Source of the DNA: Polyangiaceae bacterium
GTDB taxonomy: Bacteria; Myxococcota_A; Polyangia; Polyangiales; Polyangiaceae
Assembly: GCA_020849655.1 (NCBI GenBank)
Contig: JADLFU010000212.1
Coordinates: forward strand, 1-64,000
Reading direction: 5' to 3'
DNA length: 64,000 nt
How positions within the stretch are numbered: the first letter of the stretch is position 1; every line of letters starts with the position of its first letter. The position numbers and the translations under genes were made by a program. Positions 7,896 to 64,000 of the stretch are shown here, piece after piece. The notes below the pieces were generated by a model that did no database searches, was not told the origin of the DNA, and saw only the letters and a list, made by a program, of their open reading frames with translations.

Positions 7896-7935
7896 GTTCG
7901 ACTAGGTTGCGCCCCGCTCAGAGCAGCGAGCGGCC

Positions 7936-8010: not shown

Positions 8011-8016
8011 CGGGAT

Positions 8017-8052: not shown

Positions 8053-8078
8053 GGTTGTCCCGGCGCGCGCGGCGTCGC

Positions 8079-8828: not shown

Positions 8829-8911
8829 GTCGGTGCGGGCGCGCTGGGTCGACGGTCCGCCATCGCGAGGAGGATACCCGGCCGCCGCGTCGACCGGTTA
8901 TCCTCGCGCCC

Positions 8912-10858: not shown

Positions 10859-10872
10859 CGACGTCAGGGGCG

Positions 10873-13207: not shown

Positions 13208-13280
13208 CGCGGCATCCTAGCGATCTTCGGACCGCGACGAACCGGTTTGTCGGCGCGCGGGGCCGTGGCAAGAGCGCGGG

Positions 13281-14740
13281 ATGCGCGCCTCTTCCCTCGC
13301 CCTCGCCCTGTTCACCTCGATCGCTGCGTGCGGCTCGGGCGACGACGACGACGGGGCCGCGCAGCCCGCGAGCCTCCCCCCGGCGACGGGCGTCGCGATC
13401 TCCGAGATCAGCCTCTACCAGGGCGTGCAGGTGCCGCTGATGCAGGGCGGCGCGGAGGCGGCGCACGTCGCGCCGGTCGTGGCCGGGCGCGCGGGCCTCC
13501 TGCGGGTGCACTTCGCGCCGACGGACGGCTTCACGCCGCGCGAGATCCTCGTGCGTCTCGAGGTCACCGCGGGCGACACGAAGCGCACCGTCGAGCAGCG
13601 CGGCACCGTCTCGGGTGACTCTCGCGTCGAGGATCTCGGCACGACCGCGAACCTCGCGCTCCCGGGCGAGCTGGTCGCCGAGGGCGCGTCGTACTCGCTG
13701 TCGCTGCTCGAGGTCGCGCCGGGCGCGTCGTACGACGGTGACTCCGCGGGCGCCCGCTGGCCTGCCGAGGGCGAGCAGCCGCTCGGCGCGGTCCGCACGA
13801 ACGACGTGCAGCGCGTCGTCATCGTGCCGATCGAGTACCACGGCGACGGCTCGGGGCGCCTGCCCGACACGAGCGACGCCGCGCTCGAGCGCCTGCGGGC
13901 GCAGATGTTCGCGCGCTACCCGACGCCCAGGGTCGAGCTGTCGGTCGGCGCGCCGCTGTCGTTCTCGACGAAGCTCGCGGCGACCAGCAGCGGCGGCTGG
14001 CAGGAGCTCACGAAGTCCGTCATCAAGCGACGCGCCGCCGACGCGCCCGACAGGGACGTCTACTACTACGGCCTCATCGCGCCCGCGCCCTCGTTCGCCG
14101 CGTTCTGCAGCGGCGGCTGCATCGCGGGGCTGACGGTGAACCAGGTCGGCTCGCAGCCCGCCGAGCTGCGCGTGAGCACCGGGCTCGGCTTCGGGGACGA
14201 GGGCAGCGCGGAGACGTTCGTCCACGAGCTCGGCCACGCGCACGGGCTGAAGCACGCGCCCTGCACGCAGTTCGGCGGCATAGCGGACGTCGACAAGCAG
14301 TACCCCCACCAGGGCGCCCACCTCGGCGTGTACGGGTACGATCTCGAGGCCGGTCAGCTCAAGCCGCCCTCCGCGTGGGTCGACATGATGAGCTACTGCG
14401 AGCCGACGTGGATCAGCGACTACCACTACGCGAAGCTCGCGACCGAGCTGCAGCGGGTCGCGGGCGGCGCCCGCCTGGTGCCGCCCTTGCCCGCGCCGCG
14501 GCGCTGGCGCCTCGTGTCGGTCGACGCCGGCGGCACGGCGTCGCTCGGCGCGTCGATCCCGGCCGTCGATCTGCCGACCGGCGAGCCCGTCGACGTGACG
14601 CTCCTCGGCGCGGACGGCGCGCCGCTGCGGGTGGTCACCGGCTACTCTCACGGCTGGGACCACGCGCCGGGCGCGCTCGTGCTCGTGCCGGACGCGGACG
14701 ACGCGGCCTCGGCACGCACCACGCCGCGCAGTCCCTTAGC
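13281..14740 (+). CDS. Lipoprotein zinc metalloprotease (metzincin-like); 3' end uncertain
   Basis: Lipoprotein signal LFTSIAACGSGDDDD, then a beta-rich N-terminal half, then the zinc motif FVHELGHAHGLKH (HExxHxxGxxH) near residue 314 with a later Met-turn-like DMMSYC. This is a secreted or surface peptidase of the metzincin type. The open frame does not stop near the end of meaningful sequence (about 14720) and runs to 15377 across the opposite-strand gene. One base out of frame there is a TAG at 14737-14739, four bases from the convergent stop. A 1-base indel near 14700-14735 is the likely explanation. End given is approximate. Confidence 0.8.
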
Positions 14741-48947: not shown

Positions 48948-50909
48948 ATGAAGGGGATCCGCCTCTCCGTCGCGGCGGCGCTGCTCGCGGGCGCGGCCTC
49001 GGGGGCCGACCCCGGAGACGTCGTCGTCACCGGCACGCGCACGCCCGAGGCGTCGCAGCGGGCCACCGTCAAGACTGACGTCGTGACGCGCGCGGAGGCG
49101 GAGCGTCGGGGAGCGACCACGGTGGCCGAGGCGCTGGCCTCCCAGCCGGGGGTGCAAGTGAACCCTGGCGCGTACGGGTACCTGGGCGGCATCAGCCCCA
49201 TCCAGATCCAGGGGTTCGACCTCGGCAGGGTGCTCATCCTCGAGGACGGTGAGCCAGTCATCGGTGACATCGGCGGGGCCATCGATCTGTCGACGATCCC
49301 CATCGGTGACGTGCAGCGAATCGAGATCGTGACGGGGCCGACCAGCGCGCTCTACGGCTCGAACGCCATCGGCGGGGTCATCAACATCATCACCGCGCGC
49401 CCGCGCGACGAGGGCTGGAGCGGGCGGGGCCGCGCGGAGGCGAGGAGCCGGCGCGGCGCGCTCCTCCAGGCCGCGACGGCCCTGCGCCGTGACAGGCGCT
49501 GGGTCGCCGTCGACGCGGGCCTGACGCGGCAGGACGGCGTCGTGGCGCGAGAGGGGCTGCCCGACCTCTCCGTGCCCGACAGCGCTCGCTCGCTCGTGGG
49601 GGTGCGCGCGGGCACCTCGCTGACGGACGACGCCGACGTCCAGGTGCGCGCGCGCTGGCTGCGCCAGAACCAGGAGGGCCTCCGCTCGCAGGAGTACCCA
49701 GGCCTCGGCCGCTACGTCATCTCGGAGCCGTCGACCACCGATCGAGTGGCGCTTCACTTGCAAGAGCTGGTGCGGTTCGGGCGGGGCTCGAGCCTGCGGC
49801 TGTCGCTGGGGCGCCAGTGGTCACGCCGCGTGTCGTCGAGCGCCCCAGAGGGCTCGCCGGTCGGGCAGGAGCAGCACAAGTCCCAGGGGCTGCAGAGCCT
49901 CGAGGCGACGATGACCCTGGCGGACGGCCCGAGGACCTGGGTCGCCGGCGCGAGGTTCCAGGCGCGTGACTTCTCCCAGCACCTCGTGCGGCGGGAGAGC
50001 GTGGGCGGGGAGCTCGTCACGCGCGACGAGGAGCAGATCGCCCCGGCCACCAGGGCGATCGCCGCGCTGTACGGGCAGCTGCAGTGGCGAGTCGGCGAGC
50101 GGCTGACGGTGTTGCCCGGTGTGCGCGGCGAGGCGCACGGGCGGCAGGGCAGCGTCGTCGCGCCCCGGCTGGCCGCGGCGCTCCGCCCGTCGGAGCGGTG
50201 GACGCTGCGCGCGTCGGCGGGGCGGGGGTTCCGCGCGCCGAGCGCGGAGGAGCTCGGGTTCAACTTCGATCACTCCATGTATGGATACAAAGTCGCGGGG
50301 AACCCGGACCTGGCACCCGAGCGCTCCTGGGGTGTCAACGGCGACGTGACGTGGCGGCCGGACGGGCGGACGACCCTGCGCGGCGGCGGCTTCATGACCT
50401 GGGTCGAGGATCTCATCGACGTCGACCTCGGCGCGGGCGCGGCCTCGGGCGCCGTGATCACCTACACGTACCGAAACTTCGAGCGGGTGCGGACGGTGGG
50501 CGCGCAGCTGGGCGCCACCTTCCGCGTGGCCGACGGGTTCCGCGCCGAGGTGACCTATGATCACCTCTGGACGCGGGACGACAGCGCGGGGCTGCCCCTG
50601 CCTGGGCGGCCACCTCACACTGTCACGAGCTCGCTCCGGTGGGAGGTGCCCTGGAGGCTCGAGCTCTACGCGCGCTCGCGCTACGTGAGCGACGCCTTCG
50701 TCGACCGCGCCACGCGCACGCCCGGCTACGAGACGATCGATCTGCGCGTCGGCCGCGCGATCTCGACGGACGGGCAGCTCTACGCGGGCGTCCTGAACCT
50801 GCTCGACGTGCGCCAGGAGCCTGGGCGCATCGGTGACATGCGGCCGCCGGCCGGGCGCGTCGTCTACCTCGGCGTCCGCGCCACCATCCACGGAGAAGAC
50901 AACCCATGA
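48948..50909 (+). CDS. TonB-dependent heme receptor (HmuR/HemR-like)
   Basis: 653 residues from ATG 48948. Signal SVAAALLAGAASGA, a TonB-box-like DVVVTGTRTPEASQ, a plug domain (VAEALASQPGVQV, RIEIVTGPTSALYGSNAIGGVINI), and a 22-strand barrel. Between FRAPSAEELGFNFDHSMYGY and NPDLAPERSW lies a His, the FRAP-His-NPDL arrangement of heme/hemoprotein receptors. It should take up heme across the outer membrane with TonB energy. First gene of the operon behind the Fur-like box; the HmuY-like gene follows with an ATGA overlap. Confidence 0.88.
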   Translation: MKGIRLSVAAALLAGAASGADPGDVVVTGTRTPEASQRATVKTDVVTRAEAERRGATTVAEALASQPGVQVNPGAYGYLGGISPIQIQGFDLGRVLILEDGEPVIGDIGGAIDLSTIPIGDVQRIEIVTGPTSALYGSNAIGGVINIITARPRDEGWSGRGRAEARSRRGALLQAATALRRDRRWVAVDAGLTRQDGVVAREGLPDLSVPDSARSLVGVRAGTSLTDDADVQVRARWLRQNQEGLRSQEYPGLGRYVISEPSTTDRVALHLQELVRFGRGSSLRLSLGRQWSRRVSSSAPEGSPVGQEQHKSQGLQSLEATMTLADGPRTWVAGARFQARDFSQHLVRRESVGGELVTRDEEQIAPATRAIAALYGQLQWRVGERLTVLPGVRGEAHGRQGSVVAPRLAAALRPSERWTLRASAGRGFRAPSAEELGFNFDHSMYGYKVAGNPDLAPERSWGVNGDVTWRPDGRTTLRGGGFMTWVEDLIDVDLGAGAASGAVITYTYRNFERVRTVGAQLGATFRVADGFRAEVTYDHLWTRDDSAGLPLPGRPPHTVTSSLRWEVPWRLELYARSRYVSDAFVDRATRTPGYETIDLRVGRAISTDGQLYAGVLNLLDVRQEPGRIGDMRPPAGRVVYLGVRATIHGEDNP

Positions 50910-52003
50910 AGCGTCATCACTGGTCTCCCATGCTGGCATCCTGCGTGTTCCTCGTGGCCTGCGGCGATGACCCCGGGGCCCCGCCCGGGGGCGCGACCGC
51001 GGCCGGGGGCGATCCGTTCGCCAGCGCCGCGTCCGTCTCTGTCGCGGTGCCGGAGACCGGGCGGCGCTACGTGCGGCTGTCGGACGCGTCCGTCGTCACG
51101 CCGCCCGACCCGTCGACGTCGAGGGACTGGGACCTCGCGCTCCAGGGCTACGAGGTGTTCACCAACAGCGGCCCGTCCGGGGCGGGGGAGGGCGCCGCGT
51201 TCGGCCCGCTCACGAAGCAGGAGTGCGCGGGCGACCGCGCGCCGGTCGTGCCGTTCCTCTGGGCCGATCGCACGGGCGGCGCGTTCCTGGACTGGTACGC
51301 GTACGACGGCGCCTCGCACCTCGTCTACAGCCGGCAGCACGTCTACGGCGTGCGCGCCGGGGACCGCGCCTGGAAGGTGCAAGTCATCGGCTACTACGGC
51401 GACCAGCACGGCGCGCCCACGCCGGCGCTGTACGGGGTGCGCTACGCCGAGCTGGGCGGCGGAGACGGCGCCGCGCGCACCGTGCAGGTGGACGGGACCG
51501 CGGGCGGCGTGTCGGCCGCGCCGGGCGCAGCGAGCGGGTGCCTCGACCTCGCGACCGGCGCCGTGGCGGCGCTCACGGAGGGGGAGGCCCAGGCGTCGAC
51601 CGGGTGGCACCTCTGCTTTCGTCGAGACGCCATCATCGTGAACGGCGAGGCGGGCGGGCCGGGCGGGGTGGTGGCGGCCGACCTCTCTCCGGGCGACGCG
51701 TCGACGGAGACGCTCGACCGTGTGAAGGCGCTCACCGCCGAGCAGCAGCTCGCGCGCTTCGACGCCGTCACCAGGGAGGACGTCGCCGCGGCCGCGATGC
51801 GCGGCGACCACGTCGTCAGCACGTTCGATCGGGAGGGGTGGGTCGACTGGACCCACGGCCCTCCGGCGCCGGCGGACGCGGGGTGGCTCGTGCTCGACGC
51901 GAGCGGTGGCAACAAATCCCTCGTCGCCTTCGGGGCGTTCGAGGGCAGCACGGCGTCGTCGCCCGGCACCGTCGCGCTGCGCATCAAGCCGGTTCGAGAC
52001 TGA
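50906..52003 (+). CDS. HmuY-like lipoprotein (putative heme-binding), first copy
   Basis: 365 residues. Lipobox FLVACGDD. The central region RRYVRLSDASVVTPPDPSTS, RDWDLALQGYEVFTNSGPS, FLDWYAYDGASHLVYS and WKVQVIGYYGD matches the HmuY pattern (Y..L....V......WDLA....V.TN.G.S). HmuY proteins of Bacteroidetes bind heme and pass it to HmuR. This one carries a C-terminal extension from about 225 that repeats parts of the pattern (VVSTFDREGWVDW). Heme ligands cannot be assigned by eye. Confidence 0.78.
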   Translation: MKRHHWSPMLASCVFLVACGDDPGAPPGGATAAGGDPFASAASVSVAVPETGRRYVRLSDASVVTPPDPSTSRDWDLALQGYEVFTNSGPSGAGEGAAFGPLTKQECAGDRAPVVPFLWADRTGGAFLDWYAYDGASHLVYSRQHVYGVRAGDRAWKVQVIGYYGDQHGAPTPALYGVRYAELGGGDGAARTVQVDGTAGGVSAAPGAASGCLDLATGAVAALTEGEAQASTGWHLCFRRDAIIVNGEAGGPGGVVAADLSPGDASTETLDRVKALTAEQQLARFDAVTREDVAAAAMRGDHVVSTFDREGWVDWTHGPPAPADAGWLVLDASGGNKSLVAFGAFEGSTASSPGTVALRIKPVRD

Positions 52004-52006
52004 CAG

Positions 52007-52744
52007 ATGAAGACCTTCCTCCTCCTCCTCCCTCCTCTCCTCTCGTTGTGTGCGTGCGGCGACGGTGACTCTGCCGGCCAGCAGCCCGGCGCTGCCGGCG
52101 CGGCCGGCGCGGCAGGCGCGAGCGCGGCGCGGTGCGCCTCCGAGCGCACGACGCTCCTCGGCTCCGTGGACGCCGTCGCGCCCACAGACGTCAAGGTCGT
52201 CAGCGCCCAGGGGGAGGTGAAGACCCTGTACGTGGACGCGTCCGCCGGGGGGCCGGCCGCCGGGGGCGGGGCCCCTGCCGCAGCTCCATGGGTGTACCTC
52301 GCGCTCGAGCGCGGCGAGAAGGCGCCCGTCACCGACGTGACCGCGCTCACCTCGACAGCCTGGGATCTCGCGCTCCGGCGCGCGAGCGTCTACGTCAACT
52401 CCGGTGACGGCGGGCCGGGGGTCGGCGGCGCCGTCCTGCTCACGAAGGACTTCGACGCGGTGACGAGCGCTGACGTGGCCGGCGCCACCTTCGCCACGGA
52501 GGCGTTCTTCGACGCGTCCTGCGCGCCCAAGGTCGACGGATCGGGCGCCGTGGAGACGACGCTGTCGGCCTGGTACAGCTACGATCCGGCGACGCACTCG
52601 GTGTCGCCTGCTCCAGGGACGTGGCTCGTGCGCGGCGCGACGGGAGGCCACTACAAAGTCAAGTTCGAGACCTACCACGGCACCCCCGAAGGCGGCGAGG
52701 GCACAGTGAACGGCAGGTACCTCTTGCGGGTGGGGGCGCTCTGA
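52007..52744 (+). CDS. HmuY-like lipoprotein, second copy
   Basis: 245 residues. Lipobox LLSLCACGDG, short Ala/Gly linker, then PWVYLALERGEKAPV, TAWDLALRRASVYVNSGDGG, LSAWYSYDPATHSVSP and YKVKFETYHG. Same family signature as the previous gene but shorter and clearly divergent, so an old duplication. ATG is 3 nt after the previous stop. Possibly a second hemophore with other affinity. Confidence 0.75.
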   Translation: MKTFLLLLPPLLSLCACGDGDSAGQQPGAAGAAGAAGASAARCASERTTLLGSVDAVAPTDVKVVSAQGEVKTLYVDASAGGPAAGGGAPAAAPWVYLALERGEKAPVTDVTALTSTAWDLALRRASVYVNSGDGGPGVGGAVLLTKDFDAVTSADVAGATFATEAFFDASCAPKVDGSGAVETTLSAWYSYDPATHSVSPAPGTWLVRGATGGHYKVKFETYHGTPEGGEGTVNGRYLLRVGAL

Positions 52745-53715
52745 TGGCCGCGCGACTGTGCGCTCCGCGCCTCGCCGTCCGCGCCGCCTGGATCGCGGCG
52801 CTCACGATGCTCCTCGCGATCGTGGGTTGCGCGAAGAAGCCGGCGCCCGCGGCGGAGGCCCCCGTCGCCGAGAAGAAGACGGGCGTCTTGCTCGTCAGTC
52901 ATGGCTCGCGCTCCGCGACGTGGCGCAAGGCGCTGGAGGAGCTCGGCGAGCGGGTGAGGGGGCCCATCCTGGCGGGGGGCAAGGTGAAGGAGGTGAAGTC
53001 AGCCTTCATGGAGTACACGGAGCCCTCCATCGCGACCCGGCTGAAGGAGTTCGACCGCGACGGGTTCTCGGACGTGGTGGTCGTGCCGGTGTTCCTGACC
53101 GTCAGCCCCCACCCCTTCGACGACATCCCCACCATCATGGGGCAGAAGACGGACCCGCAGTCGCTCGAGACCATCAAGGTCGAGGGGATCGAGCGCTACA
53201 CCCCGCGCGCGAGGGTGCACCTGACGCCGCTGCTCGACTTCACGGATCTGCTGCAGAAGAACATCCTCCGCCGCGTCAAGTCCCTGTCGACCGACGCGGC
53301 GAAGGAGGGGCTCGTCCTCGTCGCGTACGGCGACGAGACCTACGAGAAGGAGTGGACCAAGCTGCTCGAGAAGGTCGCCGCCCACGTGGGGGAGCAGACG
53401 GGCATCAAGACGAGCGCCCACGCCTGGTGCGGGCACATCGTCCGCTACGATCCGAAGAAGACGACGGCGGCCATCGAGCAGGTGCTGAAGACCCGCGAGC
53501 GCGCGCTGGTCATCCCGGTGCTGGTGGCGCACGACGAGCACTTCCAGGTGAAGATCATCGGGGACGGCATCGCGGCGGTCGCGGGGTCGAAGGAGAAGGT
53601 GGCGTACCGACCGGACGCCATCCTGCCGGACGACAACCTCGACCAGTGGGTCATCCGCGCGACGATGGAGCGCGCGACGTCGCTCGAGGCCGGGGGCGGC
53701 CTGGTGCAGCGGTGA
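52744..53715 (+). CDS. Exported lipoprotein chelatase, CbiK/CbiX superfamily
   Basis: 323 residues. Unusually for a tetrapyrrole chelatase it has a lipoprotein signal, LTMLLAIVGCAKKP. The chelatase fold follows in two halves: GVLLVSHGSRSATWRKAL (metal-binding His), VVVVPVFLTVSPHPFDDIP, then LVLVAYGDETYEKEW, AHAWCGHIVRYD and VIPVLVAHDEHFQV. Cytosolic relatives insert Co or Fe into sirohydrochlorin; an exported CbiK of Desulfovibrio binds heme. In a heme operon it may hold or demetallate tetrapyrroles outside the cytoplasm. ATG overlaps the previous stop (TGATG). Confidence 0.82.
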   Translation: MAARLCAPRLAVRAAWIAALTMLLAIVGCAKKPAPAAEAPVAEKKTGVLLVSHGSRSATWRKALEELGERVRGPILAGGKVKEVKSAFMEYTEPSIATRLKEFDRDGFSDVVVVPVFLTVSPHPFDDIPTIMGQKTDPQSLETIKVEGIERYTPRARVHLTPLLDFTDLLQKNILRRVKSLSTDAAKEGLVLVAYGDETYEKEWTKLLEKVAAHVGEQTGIKTSAHAWCGHIVRYDPKKTTAAIEQVLKTRERALVIPVLVAHDEHFQVKIIGDGIAAVAGSKEKVAYRPDAILPDDNLDQWVIRATMERATSLEAGGGLVQR

Positions 53716-54275
53716 GCGCGCGCGCTCTGGCGCTGCGGCGCCTCGTCATGGTCCTGCACAGGGACATCGGGTACCTGGTGACGTCCCTGTTGCTCGCCTA
53801 CTGCGTCTCGGGCCTCGCGCTGAACCACGCGGACCTCTGGAACCCTGACTTCGTCATCCAGAAGCGCGAGGTCGCGGTGCCGCGGCGCGACTCCTCCGCG
53901 GATCTCTCCAAGGAGGAGGTCGCCGCGCTCGATCGCCTCGTGGGAGAGGCGGAGCACCGCGTCGTCGACCGACCGACCGCGGATCAGGTGAAGGTCTACT
54001 ACGAGGGGGCGACGCTCCACGTCGACTACTCCGCCGGCAAGGGCCTGTACGAGCGAGTGTCGCGCAGACCCATCATTTACCAGGTCGACGTGCTGCACAA
54101 GAACAGCTTCAAGCCCTGGCGATGGGTGTCGGACGTGCTCGCGCTGGCGCTGATCGCCCTCTCGTTGACCGGGCTGTTCGTGCTGCGCGGGCCGAAGGGC
54201 CTCGGCGGGCGCGGGTGGCGGCTCGTGGCCCTCGGGACGGCGCCGGGCGTGATCGCGCTCGCGCTGCACGGGTGA
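53712..54275 (+). CDS. PepSY-type membrane protein
   Basis: 187 residues. N-terminal membrane helix (HRDIGYLVTSLLLAYCVSGLALNH), a periplasmic PepSY-like part (residues ~40-110), then two more helices (VSDVLALALIALSLTGLFVL and LVALGTAPGVIALALH). Small PepSY-TM proteins often travel with siderophore or heme uptake genes and some act as reductases. His residues HRD and NHAD near the first helix could bind heme; that is speculation. GTGA overlap with the chelatase gene; convergent with bcrD. Confidence 0.75.
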   Translation: MSARALALRRLVMVLHRDIGYLVTSLLLAYCVSGLALNHADLWNPDFVIQKREVAVPRRDSSADLSKEEVAALDRLVGEAEHRVVDRPTADQVKVYYEGATLHVDYSAGKGLYERVSRRPIIYQVDVLHKNSFKPWRWVSDVLALALIALSLTGLFVLRGPKGLGGRGWRLVALGTAPGVIALALHG

Positions 54276-54288: not shown

Positions 54289-55161
54289 TCAGCCGGCGCG
54301 CTCCTGTGACAGCGCGCCGAGCCTGCCGGCGCGTGACAGCTGCGTGTAGCGCTGCGCCGCGAGCGCGGCCGCGCCGATCGCGCCGGCGCACTGGGCGTCC
54401 GGCGGGGCGACCACCCGGAGCGACTTGAACTTGCCCTTCTCCTCGCTGACCAGCGACTCGAGCGCCCGCGCGATCCCGGCGTTCTGCGCGAGGCCGCCCG
54501 TCAGGACGACGGCGCCCTCCGCGCCGACGGATCGCAGGAGCTTCGCGAGGCGCCCCGCGATGCTCTCGTGGATGCCCGCGAGGATGTCGGCCGTCGTGAT
54601 CCCGCGGCTGACCATGTTGATGACGTCCGTCTCCGCGAGGACGGCGCAGATGCTGGAGACGTCCTCCGGCGCCTGGGCCGTCAGGGAGAGCGCGCCCACG
54701 TCCTCGATGGGGACGCCTAGGTAGCGGGCGATGTTCTCGAGGAACTGCCCGCTGCCGCTCGCGCACTGGCTGGTCATCCGGTGGCCGAGCACCTTGCCGC
54801 GCTCGTCGATCTTGATGGCCCGCGCGTGGAGCGCGCCGATGTCGAGCGCGGCGCGCGCCTCCGGGCAGAGGACGGCGCCGCCGCGCCCGTGCGAGGTGAT
54901 CCCGTAGAAGTGCCCGGTCGTGAGGCCGGGCGCCTCGCCCTCGCCCGTGCTCGCGACGTAACAAAGCTGACGTCGCGTGACGCCCGCCGCGCCGCACGCC
55001 TCGTCGAAGGCCGCGCTCGCCACCTCGTGCATCATCCTGCGGCGGATGCGCTGGACGGAGGTCGCGAGCACCTCGACCTCCTGGCCGGCGCGGCTGCGGA
55101 CGACGGCGACCTTGACGGCGCTGGAGCCGAGATCGATCCCGGCGCTGAGGAGCTGTGTCAT
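54289..55161 (-). CDS. bcrD: Benzoyl-CoA reductase subunit D (ASKHA ATPase/activator)
   Basis: 290 residues. ATP-binding fold AGIDLGSSAVKVAVV, then the cluster-binding cysteines in TSQCASGSGQFLENIA and SICAVLAETDVINMVSRG, and VVLTGGLAQNAGIA. Together with BcrA it should bind ATP and a bridging 4Fe-4S cluster and push electrons to the BcrBC active site. Alone it would look like a 2-hydroxyacyl-CoA dehydratase activator; the flanking dch, oah and had genes decide for benzoyl-CoA. Last gene of the operon. Confidence 0.9.
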   Translation of the reverse strand: MTQLLSAGIDLGSSAVKVAVVRSRAGQEVEVLATSVQRIRRRMMHEVASAAFDEACGAAGVTRRQLCYVASTGEGEAPGLTTGHFYGITSHGRGGAVLCPEARAALDIGALHARAIKIDERGKVLGHRMTSQCASGSGQFLENIARYLGVPIEDVGALSLTAQAPEDVSSICAVLAETDVINMVSRGITTADILAGIHESIAGRLAKLLRSVGAEGAVVLTGGLAQNAGIARALESLVSEEKGKFKSLRVVAPPDAQCAGAIGAAALAAQRYTQLSRAGRLGALSQERAG

Positions 55162-55175
55162 CGTGGCTCTCCTTG

Positions 55176-56543
55176 CTAGCTTGCCTCCCGCGCGAACGCG
55201 GGCGTGACGAGGTTGACGCCGGCGCGCAGATCATCGAGCGCGAACAGCGCGGCGCCGAGCGCCCCCATGTAGATTGAGTTGGGATCGGTGTTGATGGTCA
55301 CCCCGGCGCCGTAGTTCTCGGCGACGAGCTCGCGCAGCACCTTCACCGCCATCGGGTTGTTGCATACGCCGCCCGTGAAGGTGAACTCGTCGAACACCCC
55401 GCCCGAGCGCGCCAGGAGCGACATCGCGCGCACCATGATCGCGCGGTGCAGGCCGGCGAGGATGTCCTCCCGCTTCTGCCCGAGCGCGAGGCGCTCGCGG
55501 AGCTCGGCGCTCGCGAACACCGTGCAGGTCGAGCAGACCTTCACGGTGCGCGTCGACTGCAAGGCGAGCGGGCCGAGCTCGTGGAGCCCCAAGCTGAGCT
55601 CGTCCGCGATGTAGCCGAGGTAGCGCCCGCAGCCGGCGGCGCAGCGGTCGTTCATCTGGAAGGAGGTGACGACCCCGCCAGCGTCGACCTGGATCGCCTT
55701 GGTGTCCTGCCCGCCGATGTCGAGCACCGTGCGCGTGCCGGGGCAGACCCGGTGCGCGCCGCGGCCGTGGCACAGGATCTCGCTGCGCACCGCCTCCTTC
55801 GGGAAGGGCAGGGTCTGGCGGCCGTAGCCGGTGCCGACGAACACGATCTCCTCGAGCGTCTCGGCGCTCGCGCTCTCGACGACGCGGTCGAGGGCGCGAC
55901 GGAGCGGCAGGCCCGCGCCCTCGTCTCGCTGCCAGACGCGGGCGCTCGCCCTGCGGAGCAGATCGGGGATGTCGCGCGAGAGGCGCCGCGTCTCGACGTC
56001 GAGGATCGCGCGGTCGAAGACCCCGACCAGCTGCTCGAACGGCGGCCCGCCCTCCCGCGCCCGCGCCTCCGCGCCGGCGACGAAGGCGGCGCCCGCGAGG
56101 TCCCGGAAAAAGTCGCTCTTGCGCGCGGCGCCCGGCAGGAAGTCCGCGGGCGCGCGCTCCCTGATGCCGTCGACGATGGCGCCGATGGCAGGCGCGAGCT
56201 CCGCGCGGCGCTCGCGGTGGACGAAGCTGCGCGACAGGGACGCGTGCATCGTCACGCGGAGCGCCTCCAGCTCCGCGAGGAACAGCTCGAGCCGGAACGC
56301 GCCGTGGAGCTCGTCGAGCTTCTGGCGCGCCAGCTCCGCGCCGGGGCCGTCGAGCGCCTGGGCGGCGCGCTCGACGAACGCGAAGCGCGCCGCGGTGTGG
56401 GCCTCGTCCCGCGCGACGGCGCACGCCACCTCGTAGTTGCTGCGGCTGTTGGTGATCCCCCTGCCGACGACGACGCCCTCCTCGTCGAGCATGACGGCCT
56501 TCGTGGTGGTCGATCCGAGATCGATGCCGACGACGCACCTCAT
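55176..56543 (-). CDS. bcrA: Benzoyl-CoA reductase subunit A (ASKHA ATPase)
   Basis: 455 residues. VVGIDLGSTTTKAVMLDEEG at the N-terminus, a ~150-residue insertion typical of BcrA/BadF relative to BcrD, then VLDIGGQDTKAIQVD, cluster Cys in NDRCAAGCGRYLGYIADEL and VCSTCTVFASAEL, and TFTGGVCNNPMA. ATP hydrolysis here powers the very low-potential electron transfer. ATG 56543 overlaps the bcrB stop (ATGA). Confidence 0.92.
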   Translation of the reverse strand: MRCVVGIDLGSTTTKAVMLDEEGVVVGRGITNSRSNYEVACAVARDEAHTAARFAFVERAAQALDGPGAELARQKLDELHGAFRLELFLAELEALRVTMHASLSRSFVHRERRAELAPAIGAIVDGIRERAPADFLPGAARKSDFFRDLAGAAFVAGAEARAREGGPPFEQLVGVFDRAILDVETRRLSRDIPDLLRRASARVWQRDEGAGLPLRRALDRVVESASAETLEEIVFVGTGYGRQTLPFPKEAVRSEILCHGRGAHRVCPGTRTVLDIGGQDTKAIQVDAGGVVTSFQMNDRCAAGCGRYLGYIADELSLGLHELGPLALQSTRTVKVCSTCTVFASAELRERLALGQKREDILAGLHRAIMVRAMSLLARSGGVFDEFTFTGGVCNNPMAVKVLRELVAENYGAGVTINTDPNSIYMGALGAALFALDDLRAGVNLVTPAFAREAS

Positions 56544-57835
56544 GACGCGCTCCGCTGGCGGCGCGCGTCGAGCATCTGCAGGAAGCTCTGCACGCGGTTC
56601 TCGATGTTGGCCTTGCCGAAGTACCGCGGATCGACGAGATCGGACTCGACGAACCCCCCGGCGACGCCCGTGCGCTCCTCCAGCTGCCGCAGCATCAGCA
56701 GCTGACCGACGCTGAACGAGTTGCAGGACTTGACGCTGTTGATCATGAACCCGTCGGCGTCGTACTCGCGGACGTAGCGCTCGAGGAGCTCGACGCGCTT
56801 CGGCAGGCTGAGGTTCGTGTAACAGCCGAGGCAGTAGTCGGCGAGGCTCTCGAGCGGTCGCTCGGGGTCGTGGCGAAACCCGCCGTCGTACAGGCCGCCG
56901 ACGCGCGTGTACGTGCTGGCGACGACGGTCGCGCCCTCGCGCGCGAACATGCGCCAGAAGTCGAAGAAGTGCGTCCAGCTCGGCGGGCCCTCGACGACCA
57001 GCCGGTAGCGCTCCTTGGCGCTCGGGCCGTCCGGCGTCACGGGGCCCTCCCCGGAGGCCATGCGCGCCTCGACCTCCGAGCGGAGCTCCCGGTAGTAGGC
57101 GACCGCGTCCTCGCCGCCGCGGAACGCGGAGAAGATCGGGCCGACGTAGTACACCCCGCCGAAGTAGCCGTCGATCGGCGAGGGGCGGTGCTTCGCGGAC
57201 TCCCACACCTTGACGAGATCGTGCTCGGCCTCGCGCGAGCGCGCGAGCGTGTCGGCGAGCACCGTGGGATCGAGCTTCTTGCCCGCGACGGCCTCGAGCG
57301 CCGGGATGACGGTGTCGACGAGCTGGCGCACCACGTAGGCGCGCATCTCCTCGGTGATCTCGCCGTTCGACTGGTAGGGGACGTGGAGCATCACCACAGG
57401 GCACTTGTAGTGTTGCTTCAGGAGCTCGAACCACTTCATGAAGGTGAAGCACCCCGTGTACGACAGCAGCAGCAGATCGGGCTCCGGCAGCGGCAGGCCG
57501 GTCGGCCCGATGTTGCCCTTCTTCATCATGCCGATGTCGCACTTGACGTAGGCGCAGACGTCCTCGGAGTGCCCGCCGCGCTCGGCCTCGTTGATGAAGC
57601 CGCCCGACAGCTTGCGCATGCCGGACTGCAGCGCGTTGATCTCGGGGAGCACGGGCAGCATCCCGAGGCTCGTGATGAGCTCGACCAGGTTGCCGGGGAC
57701 GAAGGTGTACACGACCTTCTTCCCCTCCTCCTTGGCCCTCGACAGCTTGTCGAAGTGCCCCGCGATCATGCGCTTCTGGCGGTCCTGGCTGGCGTCCTTG
57801 GCGGCCTTGTTCTCGCTGGGTTTGGTCTGGCTCAT
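56540..57835 (-). CDS. bcrB: Benzoyl-CoA reductase subunit B (catalytic)
   Basis: 431 residues. Member of the 2-hydroxyacyl-CoA dehydratase/BcrB family: VVYTFVPGNLVELITSLGM, CDIGMMKKGNIGP, LLSYTGCFTFMKWFELL (cluster Cys), VVMLHVPYQ, DYCLGCYTNLSLPKR and INSVKSCNSFSVGQLLM. With BcrC it binds benzoyl-CoA and the active-site cluster. ATG 57835 overlaps the bcrC stop (ATGA). Confidence 0.92.
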   Translation of the reverse strand: MSQTKPSENKAAKDASQDRQKRMIAGHFDKLSRAKEEGKKVVYTFVPGNLVELITSLGMLPVLPEINALQSGMRKLSGGFINEAERGGHSEDVCAYVKCDIGMMKKGNIGPTGLPLPEPDLLLLSYTGCFTFMKWFELLKQHYKCPVVMLHVPYQSNGEITEEMRAYVVRQLVDTVIPALEAVAGKKLDPTVLADTLARSREAEHDLVKVWESAKHRPSPIDGYFGGVYYVGPIFSAFRGGEDAVAYYRELRSEVEARMASGEGPVTPDGPSAKERYRLVVEGPPSWTHFFDFWRMFAREGATVVASTYTRVGGLYDGGFRHDPERPLESLADYCLGCYTNLSLPKRVELLERYVREYDADGFMINSVKSCNSFSVGQLLMLRQLEERTGVAGGFVESDLVDPRYFGKANIENRVQSFLQMLDARRQRSAS

Positions 57836-59022
57836 GCTGCACCCCACAGTTTGACGGAGTCGGAGAAGGCGCCCGCTTGCTCGCGGATCACCTGGAACTG
57901 ACCTGTGTTCTCTGCGAACTTGAAGCTCGTGAAGGGGACGCCCGCGGCCCCGAGCGCGGCCTCCAGCATCGGCTGGTCGAGGAGCGCCGGATCGCAGAAC
58001 GACGCCGCGGCGAACACGACGCCGTCGGCGCGACAGTCCTTCACCTTCTGCAGGAGCGCGGCGCCGTTCTCCCCTGCGCCGATGTAGCGCGACGCGGTGG
58101 CGGCCCCGCGCTCGAGGTACGCGGCCGCGAGCGCGTCGAGCAGATCGCCCGACGGGCGCTCCTCGTCGATGTCGCCCTCGATCATGCGCAGGCCGAGCAT
58201 GAAGTCGTCGTCGACGATGTCGCAGCCGGCCTTCTCGAGCGCGACGATGAGGTCGAGCGGCGGCTGCTCACAGAACGATCCGGTGACGACCACCCGGACG
58301 TTGTCATAGGGCTGGGCGTCGCGCTCCTTGACCCTCGCGACGAGCTCCTGGAGGAGCGCCGTGTGCTCCCGCGCGAGCATCAGCCCGCCCGCGCGCGCGG
58401 CGACGTACGCCTCCGAGGCGCGGATGAGCCACGGGGTCTCGACGCGCACCTCGTCGAGGGCCCGGAGCGCGGCGCGGCGCGCGTTCTCGTCGCGGATGGC
58501 GTCGCGGAGGCGCGCCTGATCGAGGGCCGAGGCGCCGCGCGCCGTGAGCTCGCCCGCGATGCGGCGGAGCTCCTGCGCGTAGAACCGGCCGCCGACGGCC
58601 ATGTCGAAGTTCTGTGGCAGATCGAGGTACGCCGAGTACTTCTCGGGGAAGAGCATCTGCCACATCCCGCCGAGGTTGCGGATGACGTCGCAGATGGAGG
58701 GGAAGAGCATCCCGTCGAACGCGTCGAGGCGGCCCGAGACCGCGAGCTCGATGGTGCTGCGCGGAATGTGACAAATGTAGGATTGGAAGTAGGAGTCCCC
58801 GCGGATGATCTCGAGCTGATCGCCGCCGCCGTGGATCGCGATGGGCAGGCAACCGAGCGCCTCGAGCAGCGGGCGGGGGCTGTAGATCGGCATGTGGCCG
58901 ATGACGAGGCGACCGGGGTTCGCGCCCTTCCAGGCGCGCACCTCCGCGAACGTCATGTCCTCGCACAGGGCGCGGGCGCGCGCGAGGACGGCGCCCGCCG
59001 GATCGTCGTGGGGGTGTGACAT
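57832..59022 (-). CDS. bcrC: Benzoyl-CoA reductase subunit C (catalytic)
   Basis: 396 residues. Same fold family as BcrB: VIGHMPIYSPRPLLEALGCLPI, YICHIPRSTIELAVSG, MLFPSICDVIRNLGGMW, FDMAVGGRFYAQELRRIA, VVVTGSFCEQPPLDLIVALE and FAAASFCDPALLDQ. Gene order C-B-A-D equals that of Thauera-type bcr operons. ATG 59022 overlaps the tetR stop and has a strong AAGGAGGA site. Confidence 0.92.
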   Translation of the reverse strand: MSHPHDDPAGAVLARARALCEDMTFAEVRAWKGANPGRLVIGHMPIYSPRPLLEALGCLPIAIHGGGDQLEIIRGDSYFQSYICHIPRSTIELAVSGRLDAFDGMLFPSICDVIRNLGGMWQMLFPEKYSAYLDLPQNFDMAVGGRFYAQELRRIAGELTARGASALDQARLRDAIRDENARRAALRALDEVRVETPWLIRASEAYVAARAGGLMLAREHTALLQELVARVKERDAQPYDNVRVVVTGSFCEQPPLDLIVALEKAGCDIVDDDFMLGLRMIEGDIDEERPSGDLLDALAAAYLERGAATASRYIGAGENGAALLQKVKDCRADGVVFAAASFCDPALLDQPMLEAALGAAGVPFTSFKFAENTGQFQVIREQAGAFSDSVKLWGAA

Positions 59023-59735
59023 CAGAGATCTCCTCCTTGGGGTGGTCGGAGCGGGGGGGGACGGTGGAGCGAGGTGGAGAGCGTCTCGGCGCGCAGCAGC
59101 GCGCGCCGGTCGGGGCAGCGCGCGACCAGCCCGCAGAGCGTCAGCCGGTGGACGCTGCGCGCGACGTCGGCGGCCGAGCCGTGCGTGGGCGCGTGGTGCC
59201 AGCTGTAGATCCAGTTGAGCATCCCGAAGAGGTTGTAGGTGGCGAGCTCGAGCTCGGCGTCGGCCACCTCCCCGAGCGCGCTCGCCGCGGGCGCGCCGCA
59301 GCCCTCGCGCGCGAGCGCCTGGAGCACGTCGCGCGCGACGGCGAAGTACGCCTCCTTCAGCTTGCGGATCTTCTTGCGGCGCTGGGGCGGGAGCGCGCCC
59401 GCCTCGTGCACGAGCACGCGCATCACGTCGCGGTGCTCGAGCACGTAGTGCACGTGGCTCGAGATGAACAAGTAGAGCTGCGTCGCCGCGTCGGGCGCCT
59501 GCGTGACGGCCTCGCTCGCGGAGCGGATGAGCGTGTCGAAGGCGTCGCGCTGCAGCTCGAAGAGCACGTCCTCCTTGGACTCGAAGTGGCTGTAGAACGT
59601 CGCGAGGCCCTTGCCCGTCGCGCGCGCGAGATCGCGCATCGTCATCCCGAAGTAGCCGTCGCGGGCGATCGCGGCCGCGGCCGCCTCGAGGATCTCGACG
59701 CGGCTCTGGGCGCCGCGGGCCGCGCGCGCGTTCAC
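59022..59735 (-). CDS. TetR-family regulator of the benzoyl-CoA operon
   Basis: 237 residues. N-terminal helix-turn-helix: RVEILEAAAAAIARDGYFGM, TMRDLARATGKGLATFYSHF, ESKEDVLFEL. The C-terminal ligand domain is typical of fatty-acyl or aromatic-CoA responsive members, and the end is Pro/Arg-rich. It lies between dch and bcrC within the operon; GTG overlaps the dch stop. The twin palindromes before had (62762-62808) are the natural operator, giving a self-controlled repressor. The inducer is perhaps benzoyl-CoA or a later intermediate. Confidence 0.88.
   Translation of the reverse strand: MNARAARGAQSRVEILEAAAAAIARDGYFGMTMRDLARATGKGLATFYSHFESKEDVLFELQRDAFDTLIRSASEAVTQAPDAATQLYLFISSHVHYVLEHRDVMRVLVHEAGALPPQRRKKIRKLKEAYFAVARDVLQALAREGCGAPAASALGEVADAELELATYNLFGMLNWIYSWHHAPTHGSAADVARSVHRLTLCGLVARCPDRRALLRAETLSTSLHRPPPLRPPQGGDL
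59031..59038 (-). promoter_or_regulatory. Strong ribosome binding site of bcrC
   Basis: AAGGAGGA on the minus strand, 8 nt before ATG 59022, inside the 3' end of tetR. It is stronger than most sites in the window and could raise reductase translation relative to the regulator. Confidence 0.7.
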
Positions 59736-60523
59736 CGGTCCTCCCAGCGGGGTGCGCGCTTCTCGAGGAAGGCGCGCACGCCCTCCGCGCCGTCATGGCT
59801 GGTGATGAACTCGTCCACGTACTGGCGGTGGAGCGCGTCGAGCACGTCCCCGACCGCCTGCTCCGCGCCGCCGGCGCGCCTCGCCGCCCGGGTCGCCTGG
59901 CGGAGCGCGAACGCGGACAGCCCCGCGAGGCGCGTGTCGTGCAAGTGCGCCGCGGCGCCGTCGACGTCGCCCGTCACGCGCTCCGCGAAGCCGCACGCGA
60001 CGGCGCGGTCGGCGGACAGCTCCTGTCCGGTGAGCAGCAGGCGCTCCGTGAGCGCGCCCCCGAGGCGCAGCGGGCCGAGCGCCGCGAGCACCGGGGGGAA
60101 GGCGCCGAGCTTGATCTCGGGGCACGCGAACACTGCCCTCTCCGTGACGAGGACGAAGTGGCAAGCGAGCGCGACCTCGAACGCCCCGCCGAGGCACTTG
60201 CCGTCGACCACCGCGACGACGGGCACCGGGTAGTGGACGAGCTCGCGGATGAGCGCGTGGAACCCGTCCAGCATCGCGGGCGCCTCCTGGGGTGTGTGCT
60301 CCGCGACGGAGGCCCCGAACGAGAAGTGCTCGCCCGCGCCGCGGAGGGCGACCAGGCGCAGGCGCGACGACTCGCGGTGGGCGGCGAGCGCCTGGCGCAG
60401 CTCGGCCATCATCGCCCCGGTGAGCACGTTGGCCTTGGGGCGATCGAGCGTCAGCGTCAGCAGCCGCTCGTCCGGATCGAGCGAGACGCGGACGAGCGGG
60501 GACAGGGGCGTCTCCGCCGTCAC
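59732..60523 (-). CDS. dch: Cyclohexa-1,5-diene-1-carbonyl-CoA hydratase
   Basis: 263 residues, crotonase fold. Segments HFSFGASVAEHTP, VVAVVDGKCLGGAFEVALAC (oxyanion-hole region) and ACPEIKLGAFPPVLAALGP are the Dch form of enoyl-CoA hydratases. It adds water to the dienoyl-CoA produced by Bcr. Family alone would allow other hydratases; the neighbours set the substrate. GTG overlaps the oah stop (GTGA). Confidence 0.87.
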   Translation of the reverse strand: MTAETPLSPLVRVSLDPDERLLTLTLDRPKANVLTGAMMAELRQALAAHRESSRLRLVALRGAGEHFSFGASVAEHTPQEAPAMLDGFHALIRELVHYPVPVVAVVDGKCLGGAFEVALACHFVLVTERAVFACPEIKLGAFPPVLAALGPLRLGGALTERLLLTGQELSADRAVACGFAERVTGDVDGAAAHLHDTRLAGLSAFALRQATRAARRAGGAEQAVGDVLDALHRQYVDEFITSHDGAEGVRAFLEKRAPRWEDR

Positions 60524-61629
60524 CCGAAGGCCTTGTCGCGGGCCGAGGGGGGCAGGACGCTGCGGATCAGCTCCTGGTCGAACGCCGCGCCCTCGGCGAT
60601 GGCGCGGCGCAGCTTGATGAAGTCGATCTCTCGCTCGTCCCTGGCGCCGAACTGGAAGGCGGGGAAGCCGGCCGCGGCCTCGGCGTTCATGTTGAGCGCC
60701 AGCCAGGCGCGGTTCGTCTCGCTGTTCTGGTACCAGTGCGCGAGCTTCTTCTTGCGCAGGCTCTCGATCGTCTTTCTGGCGCACTCCGGGAAGGTGTAGA
60801 GCAGCTTCGTCGCGAGCCGCTCGACCGCCTCGTCGAGGCGTGACAGGTCAATCGTGCACGTGGCGGCCAGCGCCTTCGCGGCCGCGGCGTCGTCGCCGGT
60901 CTTGTACTCGCCGTGGACGACGCGACCGAGGTCGTCCGTCCACCTGTCGGTCACGACGAACGGGTTGGCGATGAACGCCCCCTCCGCCGTGCGGTACACC
61001 GGGGCGGTGTCGTTGACGACGCCGAGGCGCATCGCCTTGTGCGCGGACCAGGGCTCGCAGAGGACGAGGGACTCCGCCGCGCGCCCGACGCCCACGAAGA
61101 GATCGAGGAAGTCCGTCGACCCGCCGTCGGGCGCGGAGCCGTGCACCGGGCCCGCCTGGCCGAACCGCGCGTGGTCGCCCGCGACCGTGTAGTCGCACGC
61201 CATGCCGATCTCCTGCCCGCCGGCGATGCGCATGCCGTTGACGCGGCATATGACGGGCTTGTCGCAGAGGAGGATGCCCGTCACCATGTCGTTGAAGAGG
61301 CGCATGTACTGCAGGTACTCGTGCGGCCTGTGGCGGTAGTAGGTGGCGTACTCCTCGGTGTTGCCGCCGGTGCAGAACGCGCGGTCGCCCGTCGCGGTGA
61401 ACACGACACAGGTCGCCGCGCGGTCGGCGCTCGCGCGGCGAAACGCCAGGATGACCTCGCGGACGGCGGCCGTCGTGTAGGAGTTGAGCTGCGCCGGGTT
61501 GTCGAGCGAGATCCACGTCTGGTGCAGGCCGTCGACCTCCTGCCCGGCCCTGTCCCTCACGGGGCGCTCCTCGTAGCGGATCGAGCGGAACTCGTAGTCG
61601 GGGACCAGCTCATGGTTCTTCAGTTGCAT
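60520..61629 (-). CDS. oah: 6-oxocyclohex-1-ene-1-carbonyl-CoA hydrolase (ring-opening)
   Basis: 369 residues from ATG 61629. Crotonase-like, longer than usual, with the Oah/BamA marks NHELVPDYEFRSIRYEERP, WISLDNPAQLNSYTT, DRAFCTGGNTEEYATYY, CRVNGMRIAGGQEIGMACDY and GPVHGSAPDGGSTDFL. It hydrates and opens the ring to 3-hydroxypimelyl-CoA. AGGAG seven nt before ATG 61629 rules out the ATG at 61656. Confidence 0.92.
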   Translation of the reverse strand: MQLKNHELVPDYEFRSIRYEERPVRDRAGQEVDGLHQTWISLDNPAQLNSYTTAAVREVILAFRRASADRAATCVVFTATGDRAFCTGGNTEEYATYYRHRPHEYLQYMRLFNDMVTGILLCDKPVICRVNGMRIAGGQEIGMACDYTVAGDHARFGQAGPVHGSAPDGGSTDFLDLFVGVGRAAESLVLCEPWSAHKAMRLGVVNDTAPVYRTAEGAFIANPFVVTDRWTDDLGRVVHGEYKTGDDAAAAKALAATCTIDLSRLDEAVERLATKLLYTFPECARKTIESLRKKKLAHWYQNSETNRAWLALNMNAEAAAGFPAFQFGARDEREIDFIKLRRAIAEGAAFDQELIRSVLPPSARDKAFG

Positions 61630-61678
61630 ATCGGGCTCCTGTGGGGTGAGTGACATGGATCGCGAGACCCATGGTGAG

Positions 61679-62746
61679 TCAGGGGGTGAGCACCATCCGC
61701 TGCTCGAGCCTGTGGTGCGCCATGTCGTCGAGCAGCTCGTTCAGCCGCGACATGGGCGCGACCTCGACGAAGGGGGCGACGGCGACCTCACCCTTCGCAA
61801 TCAGCCCGAGCACCGCCGCGTACGCCTCGGGCGGGCAGCCCCACGAGCCGTGCACGGTCGCGTCGTGCGCCATCAGGTTGGAGAGGCGCAGCTCGACGGC
61901 CTGCGGTGTGTAGCCCACCTGCACGAGCGTGGACGCGCGCCCGAGGAGGGCGAACGCGAGCTGTTGCCCCTGGGGCGTCCCGCTGCACTCGAAGATCTTG
62001 TGCCTGTGGCTCGGGGCGGAGGCGTCCTTGACGATCCCTCCGATCTCCTTGCGGAGCTCCTTCACGCCGCGGCCGTCGACGGCGACGCGTCGGTCGACGC
62101 CGAACCCCGCGAGCTTGTCCAGGCGCTGTCGGCTCACGTCGACGGCGACGACGGACGCGCCCAGCGCGCGGGCGATCTGCGCCACGTAGCCCCCCACGCC
62201 TCCCGCGCCGACGACGATCGCCACGTCGCCAGCCAACAGCTCAGCCCTCCGTGTCGCCTGGTACGCGGTCGAGACGGCGTCCGCGACGACGGCGAGGCTG
62301 AGGAGATCCTTCTCTTCGGGCGGCGGATCGATCGCCACGAGCGGGGCGGCGGCGACGAGCACGTGCCCGGCGAAGCCGCCGTGCGCGTCGTTTCCGGGCA
62401 TCGTCTGGCGCGTGCACGCGTTGCCGCGCCCGCGCGCGCACAGCTCGCAGGCGCCGCACGGCAGGACGGCCGGCACGATGACCGTCCGCCTGAGCAGCGG
62501 CGAGGCAGGGTCGCCCGCGGCCACGACGTCGCCGACGATCTCGTGCCCGAGCACGAGCGGCAGCGCGTGGCGAGGCGGGGTCTCGCCGGACGCGAACCCG
62601 AGATCCGTGTGGCAGAGGCCGCAGCCGCGCACGCGGACGACGACCTCCGTGGGGCTGGGGGCCGGAAGGACGAGCTCGCGCTGCACGAGCGGCGCCCCGG
62701 GCGTCTCGAGGAACCAGCCGAAGGTCGTGGTCGTGGTCGTGGTCAT
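61679..62746 (-). CDS. had: 6-hydroxycyclohex-1-ene-1-carbonyl-CoA dehydrogenase
   Basis: 355 residues. Zinc alcohol dehydrogenase family: RGCGLCHTDLGFASGE (catalytic Zn), LVLGHEIVGDVVAAG, structural Zn cysteines in CGACELCARGRGNAC, and NAD fold VVGAGGVGGYVAQIARALG. It oxidises the hydroxy-enoyl-CoA made by Dch. ATG 62746 begins MTTTTTTTFGW, coded by a short ACCACG-type repeat. First gene of the operon behind the twin palindromes. Confidence 0.88.
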   Translation of the reverse strand: MTTTTTTTFGWFLETPGAPLVQRELVLPAPSPTEVVVRVRGCGLCHTDLGFASGETPPRHALPLVLGHEIVGDVVAAGDPASPLLRRTVIVPAVLPCGACELCARGRGNACTRQTMPGNDAHGGFAGHVLVAAAPLVAIDPPPEEKDLLSLAVVADAVSTAYQATRRAELLAGDVAIVVGAGGVGGYVAQIARALGASVVAVDVSRQRLDKLAGFGVDRRVAVDGRGVKELRKEIGGIVKDASAPSHRHKIFECSGTPQGQQLAFALLGRASTLVQVGYTPQAVELRLSNLMAHDATVHGSWGCPPEAYAAVLGLIAKGEVAVAPFVEVAPMSRLNELLDDMAHHRLEQRMVLTP

Positions 62747-62761
62747 GTCGTGGTGCCTCGC

Positions 62762-62775
62762 CGAACGATCGTTCG
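62762..62775. promoter_or_regulatory. TetR-type operator 1 upstream of had
   Basis: Perfect palindrome CGAACGATCGTTCG, 16 nt before the had start codon, expected to cover the transcription start. It repeats the core of operator 2 with centres 32 bp (about three helical turns) apart. Confidence 0.8.
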
Positions 62776-62792
62776 CTGAGCAAAGGTGAAAG

Positions 62793-62808
62793 CCGAACGA
62801 TCGTTCGG
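62793..62808. promoter_or_regulatory. TetR-type operator 2, between -35 and -10 of had
   Basis: Perfect 16-bp palindrome CCGAACGATCGTTCGG. On the minus strand a -35-like TTGACC occupies 62812-62807, so a bound repressor would block RNA polymerase. The -10 element is weak to the eye. Confidence 0.8.
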
Positions 62809-63044
62809 TCAAGCGCAATGTTCGCGCGTCGACGCGCTGCGGGTGGGGAGGCGTCCTCGCGCGGAGCGGGGGAGCGTCGTGCGCGGCCGCGTCATGCGAC
62901 GAGGCGGACGGCGCTCCGCGGTGCGGTGGTTGACTCACCGGGGGGCTCGTTGTTGAAGCGCCCCAGGTTCTGTCGGGGCCGATCCCTCCCCCGTGGCGAT
63001 GCTCCCACGGGCGACCGCGGCCTCGATCCTTCGAGGAGATCCCC

Positions 63045-64000
63045 ATGACCACCCGCACGCCGCTCACCGCCCTCACCGCGCTGCTGCTCGTCGCCCCGTC
63101 GGCGCTCGGCGCGCCCGTGGTCTCGGCCCCCCTCGACGTCGCGCCGCGGCGCTTCGTCCCGTCGACCTACACCTCGGAGCCCATCACGTCGTTCGCCGCC
63201 GGCGGCGGGGCGATCGCGGTGCTCACGGCCGGTGGCAAGCTCACGCTGCTCCACGAGGATCTGTCGTTCATCGGCGAGCCGCAGGAGCGGGCGGTGGGCG
63301 CGGTGAGCGTCGGGTACGACGGCGCCAACTTCCTCCTCGCGCGCCTCTCGGGGCAGCCTCCGCAGGGCAACAAGACGTACCTCGCGGCGCTCCAGCTGCA
63401 GCGCGTCGCGCCGGACGGCGCGGTGGTCGACGCCGCGATCACGCTCGGCGACGTGCACGAGAGCGGGGTGTTCGACGCGCCGGTCGCGATCGCGTGCAAG
63501 GCGGTCGGAGACTGTCTCGTCGCCTACTCGCTGCGCCTCTACGGCAGCGGCGGGACGACCGAGAAGGATCTCTGGGTCGCGCCAGTGAAGGACGGCAAGC
63601 CCGGCGCGTCGGTGAGGCTCACCACCGCCGCGAGCGACCAGATCACGCCGTCGATCGCGTGGGACGGCGCGAGCTGGATCGTGGCCTGGGTGGATCTGCG
63701 GTTCGCGAGCTACGACGCGCCCGACTACAAGGGCACGCAGCTCTACGGCGCCCGCGTGAGCCCGGAGGGCGCGGCGCTCGATCCCATCGGCGTGCCGCTC
63801 GCGACCTACGCCGAGGTGGCCGACAACCCGAGCGTCACGGCGTCGACGCGTCTCCCCCGGGGGCTCGCGCTCGCGAACAGCGGAGGCACGACGCTGCTCG
63901 CGTGGCGCGGCTCGAGCTCGCAGCGGGTGGTCGGCAGGCGGCTCGCCGGAGATCTGTCGTCGCCCGACGCGGCGCCGATCGTGCTCGCCACCCCGGGCCC
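63045..64000 (+). CDS. Exported beta-propeller-like protein, N-terminal part (runs off right edge)
   Basis: 318 codons are open from ATG 63045 to the window end, with GAGGAGAT upstream. Signal peptide LTALLLVAPSALGAPVV. The body has repeats of the type WDGASWIVAWVDLR, SVGYDGANFLLARLSG, and GTTLLAWRGSS, separated by 50-60 residues, as in many myxobacterial secreted propeller proteins. Function unknown. It is divergent from the benzoyl-CoA operon, with about 300 nt between. Confidence 0.8.
   Translation, partial: MTTRTPLTALTALLLVAPSALGAPVVSAPLDVAPRRFVPSTYTSEPITSFAAGGGAIAVLTAGGKLTLLHEDLSFIGEPQERAVGAVSVGYDGANFLLARLSGQPPQGNKTYLAALQLQRVAPDGAVVDAAITLGDVHESGVFDAPVAIACKAVGDCLVAYSLRLYGSGGTTEKDLWVAPVKDGKPGASVRLTTAASDQITPSIAWDGASWIVAWVDLRFASYDAPDYKGTQLYGARVSPEGAALDPIGVPLATYAEVADNPSVTASTRLPRGLALANSGGTTLLAWRGSSSQRVVGRRLAGDLSSPDAAPIVLATPG

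Follow-up and report, generated by a model that had tools for sequence, protein, structure and literature searches.

A CbiX/SirB-type lipoprotein chelatase paired with a putative membrane electron carrier in a predicted heme-uptake operon of a Polyangiaceae bacterium

In a predicted heme-uptake operon of a Polyangiaceae bacterium, the gene for an exported class II chelatase is followed directly by one for a small membrane protein, and among the relatives of this chelatase a membrane redox protein, rather than HmuY, is the constant partner. We propose, with about even confidence, that the two genes constitute a portable module whose products would carry out reductive de-chelation of heme, or of a closely related metallo-tetrapyrrole, outside the cytoplasm. 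The window analyzed here is the whole 64,000-nucleotide stretch of DNA (contig JADLFU010000212.1). The original prediction made from it described a lipoprotein chelatase of the CbiK/CbiX kind at 52744-53715, located behind a heme receptor and two HmuY-like proteins, and proposed that it handles heme extracytoplasmically. Absent from that prediction were both the PepSY_TM-like fifth gene of the operon and the analogy to IhtB/FetB of P. gingivalis.

The operon is an overlapping run of five plus-strand genes (window positions 48948-54275). The first (48948..50909) encodes a TonB-dependent outer-membrane receptor of 653 aa (Pfam TonB barrel 4.6e-42, Plug 8.8e-24), whose FRAP...H...NPDL region is FRAPSAEELGFNFDHSMYGYKVAGNPDL and whose top NCBIfam model is TonB-hemin, at 152 bits and under the cut-off of 317. 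The receptor stop overlaps by 4 bases with the start of the gene for a HmuY-family lipoprotein (50906..52003, 365 aa, lipobox LVAC, PF14064 3.5e-8), which is followed by a second (52007..52744, 245 aa, lipobox LCAC, PF14064 3.3e-11). Both exceed the PF14064 cut-off, and for the second there are also matches to solved HmuY structures (3h8t/6ewm and 8b6a; phmmer 1.3e-12 for 8b6a and 6.2e-8 for 3h8t). The chelatase gene (52744..53715, 323 aa) shares one base of its start codon with the stop codon of the second HmuY gene and overlaps by 4 bases at its 3′ end with the gene for the PepSY_TM-like membrane protein (53712..54275, 187 aa, PF16357 6.2e-16, PF03929 8.5e-8), which places it within a tight plus-strand run. 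The gene order of the original prediction was thus borne out. The genes beyond the PepSY_TM-like gene are convergent, and no ABC importer of the IhtC-E type is present among the window ORFs from 48948 to 54275. A promoter and terminator scan returned no promoter and a single terminator at chance level. Farther along, on the minus strand at 54289-63076, the ORF list contains genes that by eye resemble a BadF/BcrA-type activator, HgdB-type dehydratase/reductase subunits, enoyl-CoA hydratases and a zinc alcohol dehydrogenase, and these are possibly an anaerobic benzoyl-CoA degradation cluster.

The chelatase ORF lies exactly at the predicted location, and its N-terminus, MAARLCAPRLAVRAAWIAALTMLLAIVGC followed by AKK, is by inspection a type II signal with an IVG-C lipobox at Cys29 (plus strand, 52828..52830). 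The protein matches Pfam CbiX (PF01903) with E=1.5e-14 and 54.6 bits against a cut-off of 22. The CbiK model PF06180 gave no match to the chelatase in the Pfam scan or in the genome search, so that of the CbiK/CbiX assignment only the CbiX/SirB-type, two-domain part stands; the CobN/Mg-chelatase domain PF02514 was also absent in the Pfam scan. An AlphaFold2 model built from 60 relatives (mean pLDDT 88.4) has SirB as its top solved fold (Z 19.3 over 246 residues, rmsd 3.4), with further matches to coproporphyrin ferrochelatase CpfC (Z 17.7), the periplasmic CbiK of Desulfovibrio vulgaris (Z 16.5) and P. gingivalis FetB (Z 15.6). The predicted structure confirms a full class II, two-domain, SirB-like fold. 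In a profile search, His53 of the HGSR motif (52900..52902) and His123 (53110..53112) aligned to His9 and His75 of M. jannaschii CfbA, its catalytic His pair. Both residues are invariant among the 60 relatives, as are W228 and the C229-G230-H231 motif in the C-terminal half (plus strand, 53428..53436). The alignment shows that the CfbA/SirB catalytic pair is intact, and the two His sites that had been expected of the structure are found. The HemH of the same genome gave no useful alignment to the chelatase profile. SirB/CbiX and CfbA have the nearest fold and the same catalytic pair, but they are cytosolic biosynthetic enzymes, whereas the family described here is exported and paired with redox and heme-uptake genes.

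For that family, a single genome scan gave 80 loci; the counts below are on 79. Relatives occur in 12 phyla: Bacteroidota, Myxococcota, Planctomycetota, Verrucomicrobiota, Nitrospirota, Chlorobiota, Hydrogenedentota, Eiseniibacteriota, Spirochaetota, Pseudomonadota, Chloroflexota and Ignavibacteriota. By a crude script, 72 of the 79 are exported (lipobox in 40, a signal or TM segment in 32). Among the seven scored as having none, the score of L023 is an artefact of the script, L073 and L079 could be read either way, and L046, L050, L051 and L053 make up one clade from Chloroflexota and Ignavibacteriota (support 100). The expectation that the signal peptide is conserved therefore stands for most of the family and fails in this four-member clade. 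A PepSY_TM-like homologue adjoins the chelatase at 61 of the 79 loci. At 14 others the slot is filled by an unrelated membrane protein with FMN_bind and Fer4_5 domains, a count that rests on Pfam and omits the matches to TonB ORFs that a profile of this protein gave because of the double ORF of L070. No locus of the 79 carries both types, and the four that carry neither are the same four that lack the signal peptide. The filling of one slot by two unrelated redox proteins, and the loss of this slot together with export, argue for a requirement of the exported chelatase for electrons supplied by the membrane.

The tree of the family supports the same view. The FMN_bind/Fer4_5 partner is confined to one clade (SH-aLRT 99), and partner type changes twice on the tree, compared to 13.3 times with shuffled labels. 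With one clade each, the swap of the redox protein and the joint loss of export and partner would each be a single event. Copies from Myxococcota, Eiseniibacteriota, Planctomycetota and Nitrospirota are interspersed among those of Bacteroidota, which suggests that the chelatase-PepSY pair has spread horizontally. Two variations on the arrangement were also observed. At L042 (7890-10449), L029 (863-3138) and L079 (6809-9664) two chelatase copies flank one redox gene, and at L070 (8929-12597) a single ORF of 1223 aa joins FMN_bind/Fer4_5 domains to a TonB receptor, as either a gene fusion or an assembly or frame artefact.

We consider the PepSY_TM-like protein a putative electron carrier. His16, His39 and His129 are invariant in its family, and a fold search with its model (pTM 0.59) returned no significant PDB match and no heme-reductase structure. 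It shares the PepSY_TM Pfam domain and conserved membrane-edge His residues with the metal reductases FoxB, FpvG, FsrB and CrpH, but it is small, with about three TM helices as opposed to four or more in FoxB, and its own reductase activity is putative. The window genome has a second PF16357 gene, located directly 3′ of a molybdopterin oxidoreductase gene, a position that also fits electron transfer. This pair (PF00174 and PF16357; L137 1456-3461, contig C133) resembles MsrP/MsrQ.

IhtB/FetB is a published case of a lipoprotein chelatase encoded in a heme system, so in general outline the idea has a precedent. It is likewise a lipoprotein with a class II chelatase fold that shares its operon with a TonB receptor, and it is proposed to strip iron from heme extracytoplasmically (PMC10913741, PMC6460266, PMC13227078). 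A structural alignment of the window chelatase to the FetB structure 9b86 covers 233 residues with 11% identity. FetB is CbiK-like, whereas the window protein is CbiX/SirB-like, and in the IhtB operon the ABC importer IhtC-E comes next, rather than a membrane redox partner or HmuY. The periplasmic CbiK of D. vulgaris (2xvx-2xvz) is also an exported class II chelatase (17% identity), but it too is of the CbiK type. We know of no PepSY or HmuY linkage for it. What is new in the window family relative to IhtB/FetB and CbiK is the CbiX/SirB type, the constant redox partner, the HmuY linkage and the spread. In an open-licence library we found no paper linking PepSY to CbiX or sirohydrochlorin.

The likeness to FetB also invites the reading that the lipoprotein binds or stores heme without catalysis, taking it from HmuY or the receptor and handing it on intact. 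FetB/IhtB is called a putative heme-binding lipoprotein (PMC10913741), and 9b86, which has the related fold, is an apo structure whose title reads 'without heme group'. We regard this as unlikely, since the catalytic His pair and its surroundings are invariant in the 60 relatives and storage needs no constant membrane redox partner. Chelatases are reversible in principle, and this counts for a reaction in which another metal would be exchanged or inserted into imported porphyrin, as for FetB with Mn-PPIX. In one review, FetB is credited with a metal exchange that yields MnPPIX, and iron removal is given only as 'FetB?' (PMC13402209). We give metal exchange or insertion a low probability, because the neighbour tallies of the chelatase loci show no recurrent family of metal transporters and the redox partner suits iron removal more than insertion of a divalent metal. 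Reductive removal of iron remains the reading that we prefer.

For heme as the likely substrate, the argument comes from the genes around the chelatase. A HmuY gene lies within 5 kb at 32 of the 79 loci and a TonB receptor at 47. HmuY density is 62 hits/Mb within 5 kb (44 in 708 kb) versus 17/Mb at 5-8.5 kb (7 in 415 kb), and HmuY is the immediate upstream gene at 13 of 54 loci. Sampled hits are Pfam-confirmed, except L076 10109-11524, which gave a type IX secretion tail alone; such tails are often present on the Bacteroidota HmuY proteins at these loci. Genes for B12 or siroheme synthesis, the linkage that would have pointed away from heme uptake, were not seen in the immediate-neighbour tallies. 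On the other side, about 30 of the 79 loci have neither TonB nor HmuY within 5 kb, and the chelatase-linked receptors all score under every curated heme-receptor cut-off, so heme is not established as a universal substrate. The idea of extracytoplasmic heme handling is supported in part by the export and linkage counts, but HmuY is not the constant partner. We also considered a dedicated heme-receptor motif and rejected it: the window receptor has FRAP-H-NPDL, as do some homologues, yet most of the linked receptors do not fit strict patterns. Near TonB receptors in Nitrospira (L013 3866-5743, L023 4009-5811) there is a second, apparently exported ORF of about 600 aa, and similar ORFs are present in L012, L019, L020, L024, L031 and L040. 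The Nitrospira ORFs have weak CbiX and ferrochelatase similarity and seemingly tandem chelatase domains; the one at L013 matches CbiX at 2e-5, over the Pfam cut-off.

Known PepSY_TM proteins bear on a further possibility, namely that the iron removed by the module is bound to a siderophore or a different metallophore instead of heme, with the PepSY partner acting as an ordinary reductase of ferrisiderophores. Where the role of PepSY_TM proteins is known, they are periplasmic, contain heme and reduce ferrisiderophores (PMC13038864), and the upstream neighbours of the chelatase loci include FUR and DtxR-type regulators. Nevertheless, planar tetrapyrroles are the ligands of chelatase folds and the linkage to HmuY and HmuS favours heme, which makes a siderophore substrate improbable.

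The linkage to HmuS comes from one locus. At L022 the chelatase-PepSY pair is followed directly by a true, full HmuS (1401 bits to 9d26), the sole such locus. TonB and HmuY genes occupy the other strand there (5728-14103), so that class I and class II chelatases occur in one heme locus. The window genome has no HmuS/CobN (PF02514), which is consistent with the proposal that the chelatase replaces HmuS in this organism, but L022 argues against replacement as a general rule.

Within the lineage of the window, the pair and the HmuY operon come apart. Strong chelatase matches were found in 3 of 144 related genomes, the window genome included, and 109 gave no match at E<=0.001, compared to HmuY in 71 of the 144. 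The congener G001 has a TonB-HmuY-HmuY operon that lacks the chelatase and carries its chelatase-PepSY pair on other contigs; four further family members have the same operon, again lacking the chelatase, and G094 (locus L002) has a five-gene order identical to the window. The expected co-occurrence with HmuY genes holds as proximity at some of the loci, but HmuY as an obligatory partner is rejected. The HmuY operons that lack the chelatase make the pair look like a cassette that joined a pre-existing heme-uptake operon. A third HmuY-family protein of the window genome (L131 6961-8268, contig C91) has no chelatase, PepSY or TonB homologue within the 14 kb examined.

The window genome contains HemH, a SUMT-HemD fusion and a precorrin-2 dehydrogenase-type gene. 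The organism probably makes its own heme, in which case heme uptake would serve iron. It is very improbable that the protein is an ordinary siroheme (SirB) or B12 chelatase with an incidental signal peptide: although the fusion and the dehydrogenase-type gene are present and the absence of a second CbiX leaves the siroheme ferrochelatase step with no other candidate in the genome, the signal is conserved across ten phyla, sirohydrochlorin synthesis is cytosolic, tetrapyrrole-synthesis genes are missing from the neighbour tallies, only two TP_methylase hits occur in the genome and hence no full B12 route, and most of the related genomes have no match to the chelatase.

For the de-chelation module, we hypothesize the following sequence of steps, in which heme as the ligand, the flow of electrons and the direction of the reaction are inferred. 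The TonB receptor and HmuY would bring heme to the periplasm, where the chelatase lipoprotein would hold it between its two halves. Electrons would cross the membrane via the partner and reduce Fe(III) to Fe(II), and Fe2+ would then be extracted by His53 and His123. A ferrous importer would take up the iron, leaving the porphyrin behind. This would be HmuS-type chemistry on a different scaffold, with the electron route encoded next door. In hmuYRSTUV operons HmuS, too, has HmuY and a TonB receptor as neighbours; its NADH-dependent reaction frees PPIX from heme and requires that the heme be reduced, by a route that is unknown (PMC12583661). We propose the same reaction here. HmuS is, though, a class I, CobN/ChlH-like protein of about 1460 aa with no sequence relation to the window chelatase. 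We more tentatively suggest, at somewhat less than even confidence, that the module adds a third mechanism of heme-iron release to those of HmuS and the radical-SAM (anaerobilin) route. This would be a reversed, extracytoplasmic class II chelatase with its own transmembrane electron supply, carried as a two-gene cassette in at least 10 phyla, and an unrelated flavin/iron-sulfur protein would have come to replace the cytochrome-like donor.

It is disputed whether class II chelatases remove heme iron in nature, and for HmuS, the proven de-chelatase, the source of electrons is unknown. With the chelatase and its likely donor side by side, both questions come within reach using two genes, and the arrangement is found in many cultured bacteria, among them Runella, Flammeovirga, Reichenbachiella and Marichromatium. 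If the proposal is true, many proteins that are likely now called sirohydrochlorin cobaltochelatase would need re-annotation, and the module would explain how many environmental bacteria beyond the gut Bacteroidota acquire iron from heme.
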